Of a stretch of 64,000 nucleotides of DNA, positions 42,799 through 48,078 are shown piece after piece (the stretch's first letter is position 1; each line of letters opens with the position of its first letter). The DNA lies in the NCBI RefSeq assembly GCF_015624505.1, contig NZ_CP061379.1, positions 7,558,529 through 7,622,528 of the forward strand, given 5' to 3'. Origin of the DNA: Bradyrhizobium commune. GTDB taxonomy: Bacteria > Pseudomonadota > Alphaproteobacteria > Rhizobiales > Xanthobacteraceae. The notes under the pieces were generated by a model. That model was not told the DNA's origin and made no database searches. It saw nothing but the letters and a program-made list of their open reading frames with translations. Both the position numbers and the translations under genes were made by a program.

Positions 42799-43225
42799 TC
42801 ATGCTCTGGAGCACCTCGCCGACCATGGCGAGATGGGTGCCATGGCCGGCATATTGCCGCTTGAGATCGGCGAGATAGGTGTTGGCGACGTTGAGCCGCT
42901 GCGCCAGCATGCGCGCGAGCAGCAGCGCCACCTCCGGCTCCTGCTTGAGGAATGAGGCGGCGTCCTCGAACTCGTAAATGACAGTATCGGAGCAGGCCCG
43001 CACCGTCGCGGTGTGCGGCAGTCCGAGCAGCACGGACATCTCTCCGAGCACTGCGCCGGGCTCGGCGATGGTGGCGACCACCATGTCACCCTTGAGCACC
43101 TCGAGCTTGCCGCTCATCAGCACATAGAGACGGCCGGAGGAGGTGCCGCCTTCGATGACCAGATGCATGCCGGCGGCAACCTGCCGCTCTGTTCCGCCGG
43201 TGCAATAATCCAGAACTGCGCGCAT
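42737..43225 (-). CDS. Cyclic-nucleotide-binding domain protein (CAP_ED) without HTH
   Basis: 162 aa, a single cNMP-binding domain: RQVAAGMHLVIEGGTSSGRLYVLMSGKLEVLKGDMVVATIAEPGAVLGEMSVLLGLPHTATVRACSDTVIYEF. The phosphate-binding cassette region GEMSVLLGLPHTATVRA has the Glu and an Arg-containing end. No DNA-binding domain follows, only helices (LLLARMLAQRLNVANTYLADLKRQY). It likely senses a cyclic nucleotide and acts on a partner. It is the last gene of the minus-strand cluster, 68 bp after the UppS homologue, and a hairpin covers its ribosome site. The 3' end overlaps the metallophosphoesterase gene by 62 bp. Confidence 0.85.
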   Translation of the reverse strand: MRAVLDYCTGGTERQVAAGMHLVIEGGTSSGRLYVLMSGKLEVLKGDMVVATIAEPGAVLGEMSVLLGLPHTATVRACSDTVIYEFEDAASFLKQEPEVALLLARMLAQRLNVANTYLADLKRQYAGHGTHLAMVGEVLQSMINLPPLEVSPGSDRQSDPRM

Positions 43226-43252
43226 CTTGCGAAAGCTCCTGCCGCGGGAGCT
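43226..43252 (-). promoter_or_regulatory. Hairpin covering the ribosome-binding site of the cNMP-binding gene
   Basis: On the minus strand AGCTCC (43252-43247) and GGAGCT (43239-43234) pair, with a small loop. The 3' arm contains AGGAG, the Shine-Dalgarno lying 8-10 bases before the start ATG at 43225. The stem would hide the ribosome site unless opened. Read from sequence; effect is inferred. Confidence 0.55.
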
Positions 43253-43293
43253 TACTAGAGCACGATCCGTGCCACGCGGCAAATCATGGCATG

Positions 43294-44034
43294 TCATGCA
43301 CGGGAGAGTGAAGGCACCTCGGCCGGCATGATCGCCTGGAGGCCGCCGAAGCGGCGCTCGCGACCGTGGAAGGAGGCCAAGGCCGCAGCGAGGTCGGCCG
43401 CGTCGAATTCCGGCCACATCCGCTCGGTGAAGTGCAGCTCGGCATAGGCGCCTTCCCAAAGCAGGAAGTCGGACAACCGCTTCTCGCCGGAGGTGCGGAT
43501 GATGAGATCGACGTCGCGCAAACCGGCCTCGCCGGTGACGAGCTGAGAGAACGCCTCGCGGGTGAGGCTCGTCAGCGCGGCCGCCTTGGCCGCGGCGTTG
43601 AGGATGGCGTCGCGCGCGGAATAGTCGACGGCGATGCGCAGATGAAGTGTGCTGCCGTGTGCGGTGGCGTCTTCGGCACGCGCGATCGCCGTGGCGATTC
43701 CGTCCGGCAGACGGTCGCGGCGGCCGATCACGGAAAGGCGCACGCCGTTCCTGACCAGGCTCTGCACCTCGTTGGCGAGATAAAAGCGCAGCAGCGTCAT
43801 CAGCGCACCGACCTCGGCCTTGGGCCTGCGCCAATTGTCGGTGGAGAAAGCGTAGAGCGTCAGCGTGCCGATGCCCTGCTTCGGCGCGGCCTCGACGATG
43901 CGGCGGATGGTCTCGACGCCGGCCTCGTGGCCGCGCACGCGCGACAGGCCGCGCCGCGTGGCCCATCGGCCGTTGCCGTCCATGATGATGCCGACATGAA
44001 GCTTCTCGCTGTGGGACGTGACGTCACTTTGCAT
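43294..44034 (-). CDS. UppS-like cis-prenyl transferase (di-trans,poly-cis-undecaprenyl/decaprenyl type)
   Basis: 246 aa from the ATG at 44034, preceded by GGAG. Motifs of the undecaprenyl diphosphate synthase family: [14 protein letters not shown] (catalytic Asp and phosphate loop), [42 protein letters not shown] and [16 protein letters not shown]. It makes a long polyprenyl diphosphate carrier for wall or glycan synthesis. It is not in the usual pyrH-frr-uppS-cdsA setting but next to a winged-helix regulator and membrane protein, so it is probably a second copy. A palindrome with the regulator-cluster motif overlaps its start codon. Confidence 0.92.
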
Positions 44035-44042
44035 TGCAAAGT
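44026..44042. promoter_or_regulatory. Palindrome ACTTTG-N5-CAAAGT over the uppS-like start
   Basis: ACTTTG (44026-44031) and CAAAGT (44037-44042) are perfect inverted arms. The spacer CATTG includes the uppS-like start codon (44034-44032 on the minus strand). The same arms and spacing occur at 45096-45112 on the promoter of the preceding membrane-protein gene. Confidence 0.7.
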
Positions 44043-44063
44043 CTCCAGTCAAAAAAGGGAGGA

Positions 44064-44441
44064 TCAGGTCGAAAGGATGCCGAGGCGTCCGAGCGGCGGC
44101 GCCTCGCGGCCGGCGGCTCTCGCCGCATCGCGCACCAGCCGCTCGAGCACCGCGAGATAGTCGAGGAAACGCCTGCGGCCGGTCTTGGTCAGGCGGCAGG
44201 TGGTGTGCGGGCGGTTGCCCTCATAGCCCTTGGTCACCTCGACGAGGCCGGCCTCCTGAAGCACGGCGAGGTGCCGGCTGAGATTGCCGTCGGTGAGACC
44301 ACAGAGCTGCTTGAGATCGGCAAACGCCAGTCCCTTCGGATGCGCCATCAGCGAGCTCAGAAGCCCGAGCCTCGCCTTCTCGTGGATCACGCGGTCGAGC
44401 CCTTCATAGGAGAACGGCGCGCTGTCAGTCTTCGACATCAT
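44064..44441 (-). CDS. Winged-helix transcriptional regulator (HTH_34/ArsR-like)
   Basis: 125 aa. [78 protein letters not shown] is a clear winged helix of the PF13601 type, without an evident ligand domain. It overlaps the membrane-protein gene upstream by 17 bp (44425-44441), a common alphaproteobacterial pairing, and lies 29 bp upstream of the uppS-like gene. Two identical palindromes at both ends of this cluster make it the likely owner of the operator motif. Confidence 0.88.
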
Positions 44442-45042
44442 TGTCTCCGGACGCGAAATACAGAATGGTTGCCATCACCGACTGACCGATCACGAAGGGC
44501 AGCCCCATGGTCCAGGGCGACAGCGTGTGGGTCTGGCTCGCGTGCACCACCACCGCAAAACCCGAGATGAAGTACCAGGCGCCGGCGAACGCCACGCTGC
44601 GCGGCAGCGAGCGGACGGATGCGAAAATGCCGAGCGACACCAGGATCTGCCACAGCCCCGGCAAGAACCACAGCGTCTCGGCGGCGAACTTCCACATCAC
44701 CACCGCCAGCAGGACGCCAGCGACGCCGGCGGGCAGGAACTGCTCGACGGCCTGGTGGATCATCGCATCCGCAAGGCCGGAATGATGCCGGCGCGAGCGA
44801 GCGCGCATCTCGACCCAGATCATCAGGCCGGAGAGCGCTGCGGCAACGAACCAGCCGAGGAAGAAGCCGAGCGGCTGACTGCTGGGATCGCCGAGCAGCC
44901 AGAATTGAAGGATCGCGGTGATGAGCGCGACGGCACCGGTCGCAGCCATGGTCGCCGGGCCGTAGCCGCGGAATGCCGTGCCGGCCGCAATCTGGCTGCG
45001 GATCGCCACGATATCGGCCAGCGCCTTGTCGAGATCGCGCAT
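44425..45042 (-). CDS. Membrane protein paired with winged-helix regulator
   Basis: 205 aa from the ATG at 45042 (MRDLDKALADI), or 209 aa from 45054. Unknown function. A short N-terminal helix (ALADIVAIRSQIA) is followed by about five or six hydrophobic helices, for example ATMAATGAVALITAILQFWLL, GFFLGWFVAAALSGLMIWVEM, VAGVLLAVVMWKF, WQILVSLGIFASVRSL and AFAGAWYFISGFAVVV. Its 3' end overlaps the regulator gene by 17 bp. The promoter region contains the ACTTTG palindrome, so it may be autorepressed. Confidence 0.82.
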   Translation of the reverse strand: MRDLDKALADIVAIRSQIAAGTAFRGYGPATMAATGAVALITAILQFWLLGDPSSQPLGFFLGWFVAAALSGLMIWVEMRARSRRHHSGLADAMIHQAVEQFLPAGVAGVLLAVVMWKFAAETLWFLPGLWQILVSLGIFASVRSLPRSVAFAGAWYFISGFAVVVHASQTHTLSPWTMGLPFVIGQSVMATILYFASGDNDVED

Positions 45043-45095
45043 CGGCAACGCCAAAACCTCGCTCCACCCAAGCTTGCGGACCGGCTCACCCGGTC

Positions 45096-45137
45096 ACTTT
45101 GTATCGCAAAGTATACCGCGTCACAAAGCAAACGCAA
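45096..45137 (-). promoter_or_regulatory. Promoter of membrane-protein/regulator operon with overlapping palindrome
   Basis: On the minus strand TTGCGT (45137-45132), 16 bp and TATACT (45115-45110) make a plausible sigma-70 promoter. The palindrome ACTTTG (45096-45101), N5, CAAAGT (45107-45112) overlaps the -10 element, the normal position for a repressor site. The arms match the palindrome at 44026-44042 exactly. Confidence 0.6.
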
Positions 45138-45244
45138 GCGGGAAGGTCTTAACGGGGAGATGACATTCACCGGGGACAACTGCGGGTTGCGCCGAGCCCG
45201 TGACGGCGGATATGATGGCCGCATAAGCGTGCTGGGGGGAAGTC

Positions 45245-46513
45245 ATGTGGCTTAGATCGTTCGCCGTCGTCTCGCTGTTTCAGGCAAGTCTTGCGTTAGG
45301 TCTTGGCGGTGTGGCACATGCGGCGGGGCCGTTTGGCTCCGTCAACGTCGGCAACTGGATCGGCGGCGCCTTCAGCAACGATCAGACCGGCGACTTCTCC
45401 CATTGCGCCGCCACGGCGCCCTACGCCAATGGCGTCATCCTCGTCGTGAGCCAGAATGCCGCCGGCACGTGGTTGCTGGCCTTTGCGAGTCCCAGCTACC
45501 GCTTCAACAAGGGTGAGAACGCCGCGATCGACGTCATCTTCGACGGACAGGAGCAGGCCAGACTGTTCGCTACAGCGAACCAGACCAACATGCTGACGGC
45601 CGTCATGCCGGCCAATGTCGTGCGGACGTTTCAGAAGGCAAGCCTAATGGTCGCCACCAGCGGCCGCACCGTCCTGAATTTCGACCTCAGTTCGACCGGG
45701 CCAGTCATCGCGGCCTTGGCGAATTGCGTCACGCGCGTGAAGGCCGACGGGCTCAGCAAGGCCGGCGATTTCACCAAAGGCGCGGCGAAGCCGGCAGCCG
45801 TGGCGGACAAGCAGGGGTCACCGCCGGCCGGCAAGTCCGGCAAAGGAACCAAGGGTAGCAGCGGCTTCGGCACCGGCTTCGTGGTCAGCGCGAGCGGGCA
45901 CATCGTCACCAACAACCATGTGATCGACGGTTGCAGCGAGCTCAAGGGCAATCTCACCGGCGAAGCCGCGATGGTGTTGCGCGTCGTGTCTGCTGATGCG
46001 AACAACGATCTGGCTTTGTTGCAGCCGTCGACGACGGCATCATTCAAGGACTTTGCCCGGATTCGCGACCGCTCGTTCCACTCCGGCGATTCCGTCGTGG
46101 CGATCGGATTTCCCTATCATGGCTTGCTGACGTCGGACTTCACCGTGACGACCGGCATTGTCAGCTCGCTCAGCGGCATGCGCAACGACACGCGTTTCCT
46201 GCAAATCAGCGCACCGGTGCAGCCCGGCAATAGCGGCGGCCCGTTGTTCGACACCAGCGGTCAGATCGTTGGCGTGGTCACTGGAAAGATTCCCGGATTG
46301 CGCATTGCCGCGCTGACCGGCGATATTCCCGAGAACATCAACTTCGCGATCAAGACCGGCGCGCTGCGCGACTTCCTCGACAATTCCGTGGTGCCTTACC
46401 AGACGGCCGAGCCGAAGGGCGAGCTCAAGACCCCCGAGATTGCCGGCAATGCCCGCGCCTACACGATGCTGATCTCGTGCAAAGGCACGGAGCAGGCCGA
46501 CGCGAAGAAGTGA
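45245..46513 (+). CDS. Secreted trypsin-like serine protease
   Basis: 422 aa. A signal peptide (1-27, ending AHAAG) leads an N-terminal domain of about 170 residues of unknown type with Cys54 and Cys161. A basic linker (179-206, GKSGKGTKGSSG) connects to a chymotrypsin-fold domain with triad His225 (TNNHVIDGC), Asp255 (NNDLALLQ) and Ser330 (QPGNSGGPLFD). No PDZ domain, so it is not a DegP type. Periplasmic or secreted. The start at 45245 has GGGGGGAAG upstream. It stands alone and is divergent from the membrane-protein operon. Confidence 0.9.
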   Translation: MWLRSFAVVSLFQASLALGLGGVAHAAGPFGSVNVGNWIGGAFSNDQTGDFSHCAATAPYANGVILVVSQNAAGTWLLAFASPSYRFNKGENAAIDVIFDGQEQARLFATANQTNMLTAVMPANVVRTFQKASLMVATSGRTVLNFDLSSTGPVIAALANCVTRVKADGLSKAGDFTKGAAKPAAVADKQGSPPAGKSGKGTKGSSGFGTGFVVSASGHIVTNNHVIDGCSELKGNLTGEAAMVLRVVSADANNDLALLQPSTTASFKDFARIRDRSFHSGDSVVAIGFPYHGLLTSDFTVTTGIVSSLSGMRNDTRFLQISAPVQPGNSGGPLFDTSGQIVGVVTGKIPGLRIAALTGDIPENINFAIKTGALRDFLDNSVVPYQTAEPKGELKTPEIAGNARAYTMLISCKGTEQADAKK

Positions 46514-47281: not shown

Positions 47282-47749
47282 TCAGGCGACGAAGGCGTCG
47301 AGCTTGTCGAAGAACGAGCTCCAGCCGCGCTGATGGTTGTCGCGCGCGGTCTCGTCGACGAACTGGGCGTGATGGAAAATCATCAGGGTGCCGGCGCTGT
47401 CAGGCTTCAACGTGATCGTCACCAGCGATTCACGTTCCGGCGTCGAATGCCAGGCCCAGGTGAAGACCAGACGCTCATTCGGCACCACCTCGCGATAGGT
47501 GCCGCCGGCCTCGAAATATTCGCCATCGTCGCGGGTGAAGGAGATGCGGTAGCGGCCGCCCGTCCGAACGTCGAGCTCGGCGTTCAGCGTCGCCGGCTTC
47601 ATGTTCGGCGGGCCGAACCATTGCGCTAGCTGCTCGGCTTGCGTCCAGGCAGCGAAGACTTTTTCCGGCCGCGCGCGGAGCCGGCGGGTGAGCGTGAGAC
47701 TTGGACGCTCCGATGTGCGGGGATCGGCGTTGACGGCTGCGTTGGCCAT
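47282..47749 (-). CDS. SRPBCC/AHSA1-type protein
   Basis: 155 aa. LTLTRRLRARPEKVFAAWTQAEQLAQWFGPP and RYRISFTRDDGEYFEAGGTYREVVPNERLVFTWAW are the signature of AHSA1 (activator of Hsp90 ATPase homologue) domains of the START-like SRPBCC fold. They bind hydrophobic ligands, and function in this setting is unknown. Its start lies inside the ArsR gene, which overlaps it by 124 bp in another frame. Second gene of the ArsR-SRPBCC-DUF899 operon. Confidence 0.92.
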   Translation of the reverse strand: MANAAVNADPRTSERPSLTLTRRLRARPEKVFAAWTQAEQLAQWFGPPNMKPATLNAELDVRTGGRYRISFTRDDGEYFEAGGTYREVVPNERLVFTWAWHSTPERESLVTITLKPDSAGTLMIFHHAQFVDETARDNHQRGWSSFFDKLDAFVA

Positions 47750-48078
47750 GGTTTGTCCTCCACAAAGGCGGCAAGGCGGTCGAAACTCTCGGACCAGAAT
47801 TGCGCGTAGCGATTGAGCCAGTTCATCGCCTGCTCCATCGGCTGCGCGGTGAGCCGGCAGGCGACCGTGCGCCCGGTCTTCTCGCGCACGATCAGGCCCG
47901 CATCCGTGAGCACGTCGAGATGCTTCATGATCGCCGGCAGCGAGATCGAGAACGGCGCGGCGAGCTCGCTCACTGACAGGCCGTCTTTCTCGCCGAGACG
48001 CGCGAGCAGCGCGCGCCGCGTCGGATCGGACAAGGCCGCGAACGTGCGGTCGAGCGTCTCATCTTTATACTTAACCAT
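47626..48078 (-). CDS. ArsR family transcriptional regulator
   Basis: 150 aa. TLDRTFAALSDPTRRALLARLGEKDGLSVSELAAPFSISLPAIMKHLDVLTDAGLIVREKTGRTVACRLT is a typical ArsR winged helix of the SRPBCC-linked kind; it lacks the metal-binding Cys set of arsenic sensors. The conserved domain ends near residue 112, and the last ~40 residues are read out of frame over the SRPBCC start (124-bp overlap). Predicted to repress its own operon through the palindrome over its start codon. Confidence 0.92.
   Translation of the reverse strand: MVKYKDETLDRTFAALSDPTRRALLARLGEKDGLSVSELAAPFSISLPAIMKHLDVLTDAGLIVREKTGRTVACRLTAQPMEQAMNWLNRYAQFWSESFDRLAAFVEDKPWPTQPSTPIPAHRSVQVSRSPAGSARGRKKSSLPGRKPSS

Follow-up and report, generated by a model that had tools for sequence, protein, structure and literature searches.

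Conserved palindromes at both ends of a membrane-protein and winged-helix gene pair suggest an autoregulated isoprenoid-lipid regulon in Bradyrhizobium commune

What is the function of two identical palindromes that stand about 1.07 kb apart, one at the promoter of a membrane-protein and regulator gene pair and the other on the start codon of the UppS-like gene behind it? The window analysed here is the whole stretch of 64,000 nucleotides from Bradyrhizobium commune (contig NZ_CP061379.1). Within it the locus is read from the minus strand in the order promoter and O1, M, H, O2 and U, with the following features.

45132..45137, minus strand: predicted -35, TTGCGT, 16 nt upstream of TATACT
45124..45128, minus strand: additional half-site CTTTG between the -35 and the -10
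45110..45115, minus strand: predicted -10, TATACT, of the M-H operon; overlaps O1
45096..45112, no strand: O1, operator-like ACTTTG-N5-CAAAGT upstream of M, exact (ACTTTGTATCGCAAAGT); overlaps the predicted -10
44425..45042, minus strand: M, predicted membrane protein of 205 aa; start set by comparison
44064..44441, minus strand: H, winged-helix regulator of 125 aa; PF13601 (HTH_34) at 77.4 bits against a cut-off of 27, residues 24-103
44026..44042, no strand: O2, exact ACTTTG-N5-CAAAGT (ACTTTGCATTGCAAAGT); covers the U start codon, directly 3' of a GGAG Shine-Dalgarno sequence
43294..44034, minus strand: U, second cis-prenyltransferase, UppS paralogue; PF01255 at 248 bits against a cut-off of 27; ATG inside O2

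The sequence-only reading had described one palindrome at both ends of this cluster, with equal arms and a 5-nt spacer, one copy overlapping a predicted -10 and the other holding the start codon of the UppS-like gene. All of this was borne out: both copies are exact (44026-44042 and 45096-45112), TATACT at 45110-45115 overlaps O1 and is conserved across loci, and the ATG of U (44034-44032, minus strand) lies within O2. The M and H genes overlap by 17 nt in the window and by 8-17 nt across 28 loci measured, the H stop lies 21 nt from O2, and the spacing between O1 and O2 is 1033-1176 bp in 28 loci measured. The predicted topology of M, with hydrophobicity judged by eye, is an N-terminal helix followed by six long helices, and profile scans gave no Pfam or NCBIfam match. 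Its AlphaFold model (mean pLDDT 85) has no PDB match at E ≤0.001 in Foldseek; compared with known folds in VIA it reaches a best Z of 9.2, designed helical bundles coming top and channels next, and a Z of this middling size neither excludes nor supports a known fold for the modelled protein. In H the segment TDGNLSRHL is invariant across 28 aligned homologues, and from this and the conserved dyad sites we infer that H would act as a sequence-specific dimer on DNA. In one genome (G1044) M is split into two pieces. An M-H fusion (P0030), found on a single 2.5-kb contig, was set aside as a likely frameshift artefact, since the overlapping M and H genes are read in different frames.

In the window by itself, a pair of matches at up to two mismatches is not rare by chance, as 13 of 100 shuffles gave at least two; both real copies are exact. 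Across the genome of 7,622,528 bases, exact ACTTTG-N5-CAAAGT occurs in two places, both at this locus. The same holds for the shorter CTTTG-N5-CAAAG, for which the reversed control gave three places, and the motif at up to two mismatches is at background (52 places, the control giving 77). The sequence-only reading had required a motif that is not common genome-wide and that is conserved at orthologous genes, and it survives on both counts, with just two exact genomic copies and conservation at the orthologues described below.

Conservation was assessed at 94 loci with relatives of H at 66-100% identity, comprising 19 from a family sample (L003-L021) and 75 from named genome contigs. The more distant family-sample loci L022-L032 (40-44% identity) were used as control, and one of the 76 named loci (L108) was moved there. 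Four duplicate pairs were taken out in the distinct-stretch and group analysis only, leaving 90 distinct O1-O2 stretches. M is matched in 94/94 loci and U in 93/94, L020 being without U. O1 is exact in 61 of the 94, with one mismatch in 26, two in six and a single miss at L017, where the contig ends before the region upstream of M; it is thus present at up to one mismatch in 87/94 and up to two in 93/94. O2 is exact in 45, with one mismatch in 31, two in eight, three in nine and five in one (up to one mismatch in 76/94, up to two in 84/94, three or more in 10/94). When the loci are collapsed to 32 groups at 80% M identity, O1 is retained within two mismatches in 31 and O2 in 27. Base-shuffled versions of the 180-nt surroundings of O1 contained a site of this quality in 6/1600 cases, and none was found at 12 distant HTH_34 loci. 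The columns flanking O1 and O2 are little conserved except for promoter and Shine-Dalgarno elements, those at O2 being a T-rich stretch and a GGAG-like sequence. Three Methylobacterium loci (L089, L092, L096) have an extra site upstream of the promoter-side one, 5' of M.

The promoter at O1 shows the same pattern. The -10 is TATACT in 59/93 loci and TANNNT in 71/93, and the stretch from -29 to -20 upstream of O1 holds TTGA, TTGC or TTGT in 90/93, giving a -35 of the TTGC/TTGA type. An additional half-site, CTTTG or GTTTG, lies at -19 to -10 upstream of O1 in 61/93. A strict sigma-70 consensus scan of 43200-45300 reported no promoter, so it is conservation that argues for a promoter at O1.

At the other end of the unit, O2 is locked to the start of U. 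The start codon falls at position +8 of O2 in 87 of the 93 loci with U (ATG 83, GTG 4), and is displaced from that place in six (L011, L012, L013, L018, L040, L097). Codon 2 in the 87 fixed-start loci is CAA in 83, CAG in three and AAA in one, while elsewhere in U glutamine is encoded by CAA in 46/322 and by CAG in 276/322. For codon 3 the counts are 59 AGT and 25 AGC, whereas AGT accounts for 28/1036 of the serine codons elsewhere in U. CAA-AGT is therefore favoured at the start of U against its own codon usage, which points to a constraint at the level of DNA. The N-terminus of U is variable except for a near-invariant Met-Gln-Ser start, which is there because the operator O2 lies across it. 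No O1-like promoter precedes O2 in any of 92 loci (0/92). A DagK-like gene in one relative also starts exactly at the ATG of O2. At L020/L185 (G038), U has been lost and O2 with the ATGCAAAGT start is kept, ahead of a short open frame and, after it, a DUF4153 membrane-protein gene.

Which of the genes the motif belongs with can be judged from its distribution. The 149 family genomes hold 22 exact strict sites, 16 of them in an M-H-U cluster (reversed control, 1). An exact cluster site is present in 12 of 19 genomes with the cluster, and an exact site anywhere in 5/130 of the others (Fisher p 1.5e-9). The off-cluster strict sites are in G072, G006, G116, G105 and G066; in G006, G116 and G105 (L120, L121 and L124), genomes without the cluster, the palindrome occurs once each with the spacer TCCGA or its complement. 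An even draw of the class has M in 5/289 genomes; those five also supply the five best U-type matches, and each has a second UppS-type match as well. M is found in 13/398 genomes of the phylum. In one genome (G777, L178/L179), M, H and an exact O1 stand with no U adjoining and a VIT-domain protein as third gene. M occurs in 3/246 genomes of the order to which G777 belongs and in 10/195 of one genus (f14) of its family. Across the 11 M-H loci of G777 and the ten genomes of that genus, O1 is found at up to one mismatch in nine and O2 at up to two in seven, O2 being absent at this threshold from four of the 11 loci of this other alphaproteobacterial family. The third gene in the ten genomes is a P450 in six, a linalool-dehydratase-like (LDI-like) gene (PF18566) in two, a diacylglycerol-kinase-like (DagK-like) gene (PF01219) in one and unassigned in one (L189). 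The P450s are 64-100% identical to one of their number by tblastn, two of them having been scanned against Pfam, and the best solved relative of one is P450cam. The two LDI loci have a degenerate O1, with three and four mismatches. In G1039 (L198, 6930-9343) the run behind M-H consists of P450cam-like, short-chain dehydrogenase and SnoaL/limonene-epoxide-hydrolase-like genes, and resembles a terpenoid-oxidation operon. Taken across these loci, the motif appears to track the M-H pair, and not U.

Genes around the unit do not share this linkage. The window neighbours were rejected as members because their presence across the 75 named loci is partial by tblastn (CAP-like 22, metallophosphatase 22, trypsin-like 34, DUF899 38, AHSA1 41), which places them outside M-H-U. 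At 47282-48078 of the window, an ArsR-like regulator gene overlaps the AHSA1-domain gene, with the DUF899 gene adjoining.

The identity of U bears on what the pair would control. U carries the family score and the motif residues of the cis-prenyltransferases (PF01255) and is predicted to make polyprenyl diphosphate; against NCBIfam PRK14839 it scores 428.7 bits (cut-off 334). In 24 aligned rows, one of which is the housekeeping copy, MDGNGRW, H36, N67, W68, R70, R180, R186, S188 and E199 are invariant. U resembles housekeeping UppS in its family, in its score of about 190 bits to E. coli UppS (1jp3) and in keeping MDGNGRW, but it forms a clade of its own (support 100/100; 24 U against 26 canonical rows), with RLSDF in 24/24 U rows where 25/26 canonical rows have R[LIV]SNF, and DYS[AS]R in 23/24 U rows against none of the eight canonical rows in which the pattern was readable (18 were not read). 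U does not have the frr-uppS-cdsA context, which in this genome belongs to the other PF01255 gene, the housekeeping uppS (G000:C1:3579356). The proposal that the regulator controls polyprenyl-carrier synthesis therefore holds for a UppS-family gene behind O2 and not for housekeeping UppS; with U a second, divergent cis-prenyltransferase, control by the circuit need not extend to the essential lipid carrier.

Further genes recur in the same setting. In 27/75 named loci U is followed by a BchE-like B12 radical-SAM gene, as it is in 5/18 family loci, where the flank covers about 1.5 kb only. Some of the Bradyrhizobium species with such a gene behind U we take to be non-phototrophic. At L061, L085, L098, L099 and others, the gene downstream of U is a BchE-like radical-SAM gene that is possibly misnamed BchE. 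Two full-length proteins of this kind from behind U were tested, and both exceed the NCBIfam BchE cut-off. At E 1e-60 a BchE-like gene is found in 7/19 family genomes with the cluster and 4/130 without (149 in all), and the window's own genome has no match at this threshold. G056 has M-H-U at another place; its BchE-like gene (two frames, 386 and 170 aa) is on its own, preceded within 150 nt by two sites, one exact and one with a single mismatch (L199/L186), and by an M-type promoter, TTGCAT...TATACT. At the five other off-cluster BchE-like loci (L203, L205, L207-L209) no site was found at up to two mismatches, which makes G056 one case of six. On plasmid pAU20b of Aureimonas sp. AU20 (L210, 7403-11591), M, H, uppS, LDI-like and DagK-like genes form one run, with an O2 at one mismatch and no O1 within two, and in G1162 an LDI-like gene follows M-H, then DagK-like and BchE-like frames. 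The circuit had been conceived as a regulator with a UppS-like target. The palindrome at both positions does track the pair, but the regulon looks wider, because the same cassette precedes LDI-, DagK- and P450cam-like genes and, once, a BchE-like gene. To name these genes as housekeeping uppS or bchE would be misleading, given that both BchE-like proteins tested pass the cut-off and yet sit in this operon.

Other explanations of the two sites have to be weighed. O2 might act as RNA, with a hairpin (7 bp at most) hiding the U start codon and the likeness to O1 secondary. Its innermost pair, 7-11, is possible in 93/93 loci (G-T counted), pairs 2-16 to 5-13 in 90-93, and the AUG falls in the loop and 3' arm in 87/93; however, pair 6-12 is impossible in 18/93 and pair 1-17 in 26/93. 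O1, moreover, has the same arms even though it would lie mostly outside the mRNA, since it overlaps the -10 and the likely transcription start, and its positions 7 and 11 can pair in just 35/93. From these pair counts a hairpin was judged an unlikely main mode for O2.

As a simple dyad, the palindrome could also be recognised by many winged-helix dimers, so that a different, unlinked regulator might bind it, with M-H merely one target operon. We rate this slightly below the hairpin, as the genome has just the two sites, few family genomes that lack the cluster carry such a site (5/130), and the sites follow M-H through the loss or replacement of U. About as improbable as the hairpin is an arrangement in which H is an activator, or in which M-H is constitutive and U alone is controlled. 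The sign of regulation is unreadable from sequence alone, and the further-upstream CTTTG-type half-site at O1 (61/93) would suit an activator, but O1 covers the -10-like element (TANNNT in 71/93), a repressor position, and O2 lies within the presumed transcribed unit.

We therefore favour a reading in which H is an autorepressor that works through O1 and O2, with M as its membrane partner and with targets that form an isoprenoid-lipid regulon, and put its probability at about 0.78. The sequences of the two sites, their conservation, their linkage to M-H, the overlap with the promoter and the swapping of targets are established. Conserved palindromes that track M-H are the trace to be expected of a locally acting autoregulator, and an operator-like site over its own promoter, conserved with the gene, fits what would define an autoregulated repressor. 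Autoregulation, as first proposed, is in this way partly supported, by conservation at both positions, overlap with the M-H promoter and tracking of the pair. H would be produced from a translationally coupled M-H unit and would bind O1; with O1 over the -10, repression of its own operon is the natural reading. H would also bind O2, which separates the regulator genes from the first target. Because this site falls within the presumed transcribed unit and no promoter is visible at it, we infer that H bound there acts as a transcription roadblock or bridges to O1, about 1.07 kb away, tightening repression of the target; the 1033-1176 bp spacing would allow looping of the lac type. M, by its co-occurrence with H and the overlapping coding, is the natural candidate for a sensor of H; as sensor or anchor it may relieve or enforce repression upon a signal soluble in the membrane, probably an isoprenoid. 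In B. commune the target would be the dedicated second cis-prenyltransferase, and in relatives other isoprenoid-type enzymes. The chemistry shared by the targets (UppS, LDI, P450cam-like and possibly DagK as undecaprenol kinase) suggests an isoprenoid as signal or product of the regulon. The LDI and P450 families are broad, which limits this argument, and PF01219 includes true diacylglycerol kinases, solved diacylglycerol kinases being among the matches.

A more tentative extension, to which we give somewhat less than even odds, is that M-H is a membrane-coupled isoprenoid sensor and that O1 and O2 mark an undescribed alphaproteobacterial polyprenyl-lipid regulon of a cis-prenyltransferase, a BchE-like B12 radical-SAM protein, a membrane LDI-like protein, a DagK/undecaprenol-kinase-like protein and, elsewhere, a P450cam-like protein. 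The operator-over-start-codon element ATGCAAAGT (Met-Gln-Ser) would then be a portable cassette for various targets, and a DNA signature would predict the targets of an uncharacterised regulator pair. We know of no account in which a second UppS, a BchE-like radical-SAM protein, an LDI-like membrane protein and a DagK-like kinase belong together. If true, the proposal suggests that Bradyrhizobium, Methylobacterium and relatives contain an isoprenoid lipid not yet known, with a membrane protein that senses it.

Searches of open-access full text found no report of the palindrome (in several spacer variants) or of the circuit, which leaves absence from print unproven. No open-access paper was found on PF13601, or on at least three of the five terms linalool dehydratase, undecaprenyl, radical SAM, diacylglycerol kinase and cis-prenyltransferase in combination. 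The palindrome arms as separate words led to no paper on this motif in the excerpts of the open-access literature that were available. Among such excerpts, the term 'UppS paralog' is used in a Clostridioides difficile paper, and neither uppS nor undecaprenyl occurs in those of PMC12583986 and PMC4842269.

Comparison with known systems places the locus between familiar designs. H is like other PF13601 (HTH_34) regulators (77 bits), and its residues 18-101 match PH1061 (1ub9), the nearest solved relative by sequence; unlike them, it overlaps a membrane-protein gene, and its ACTTTG-N5-CAAAGT site is absent from the 12 distant HTH_34 loci. In PadR/DUF1700-type pairs a small regulator is co-transcribed with a membrane protein, and M-H likewise combines a regulator and a multi-helix membrane protein in one operon, but in Pfam scans H has no PadR match and M belongs to no Pfam family. 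The lac operon has a second operator inside its transcribed unit, and here too one operator-like site stands at the promoter and another downstream in the same operon; unlike its lac counterpart, O2 covers the first target gene's start codon, as it also does for the DagK-like gene of one relative.
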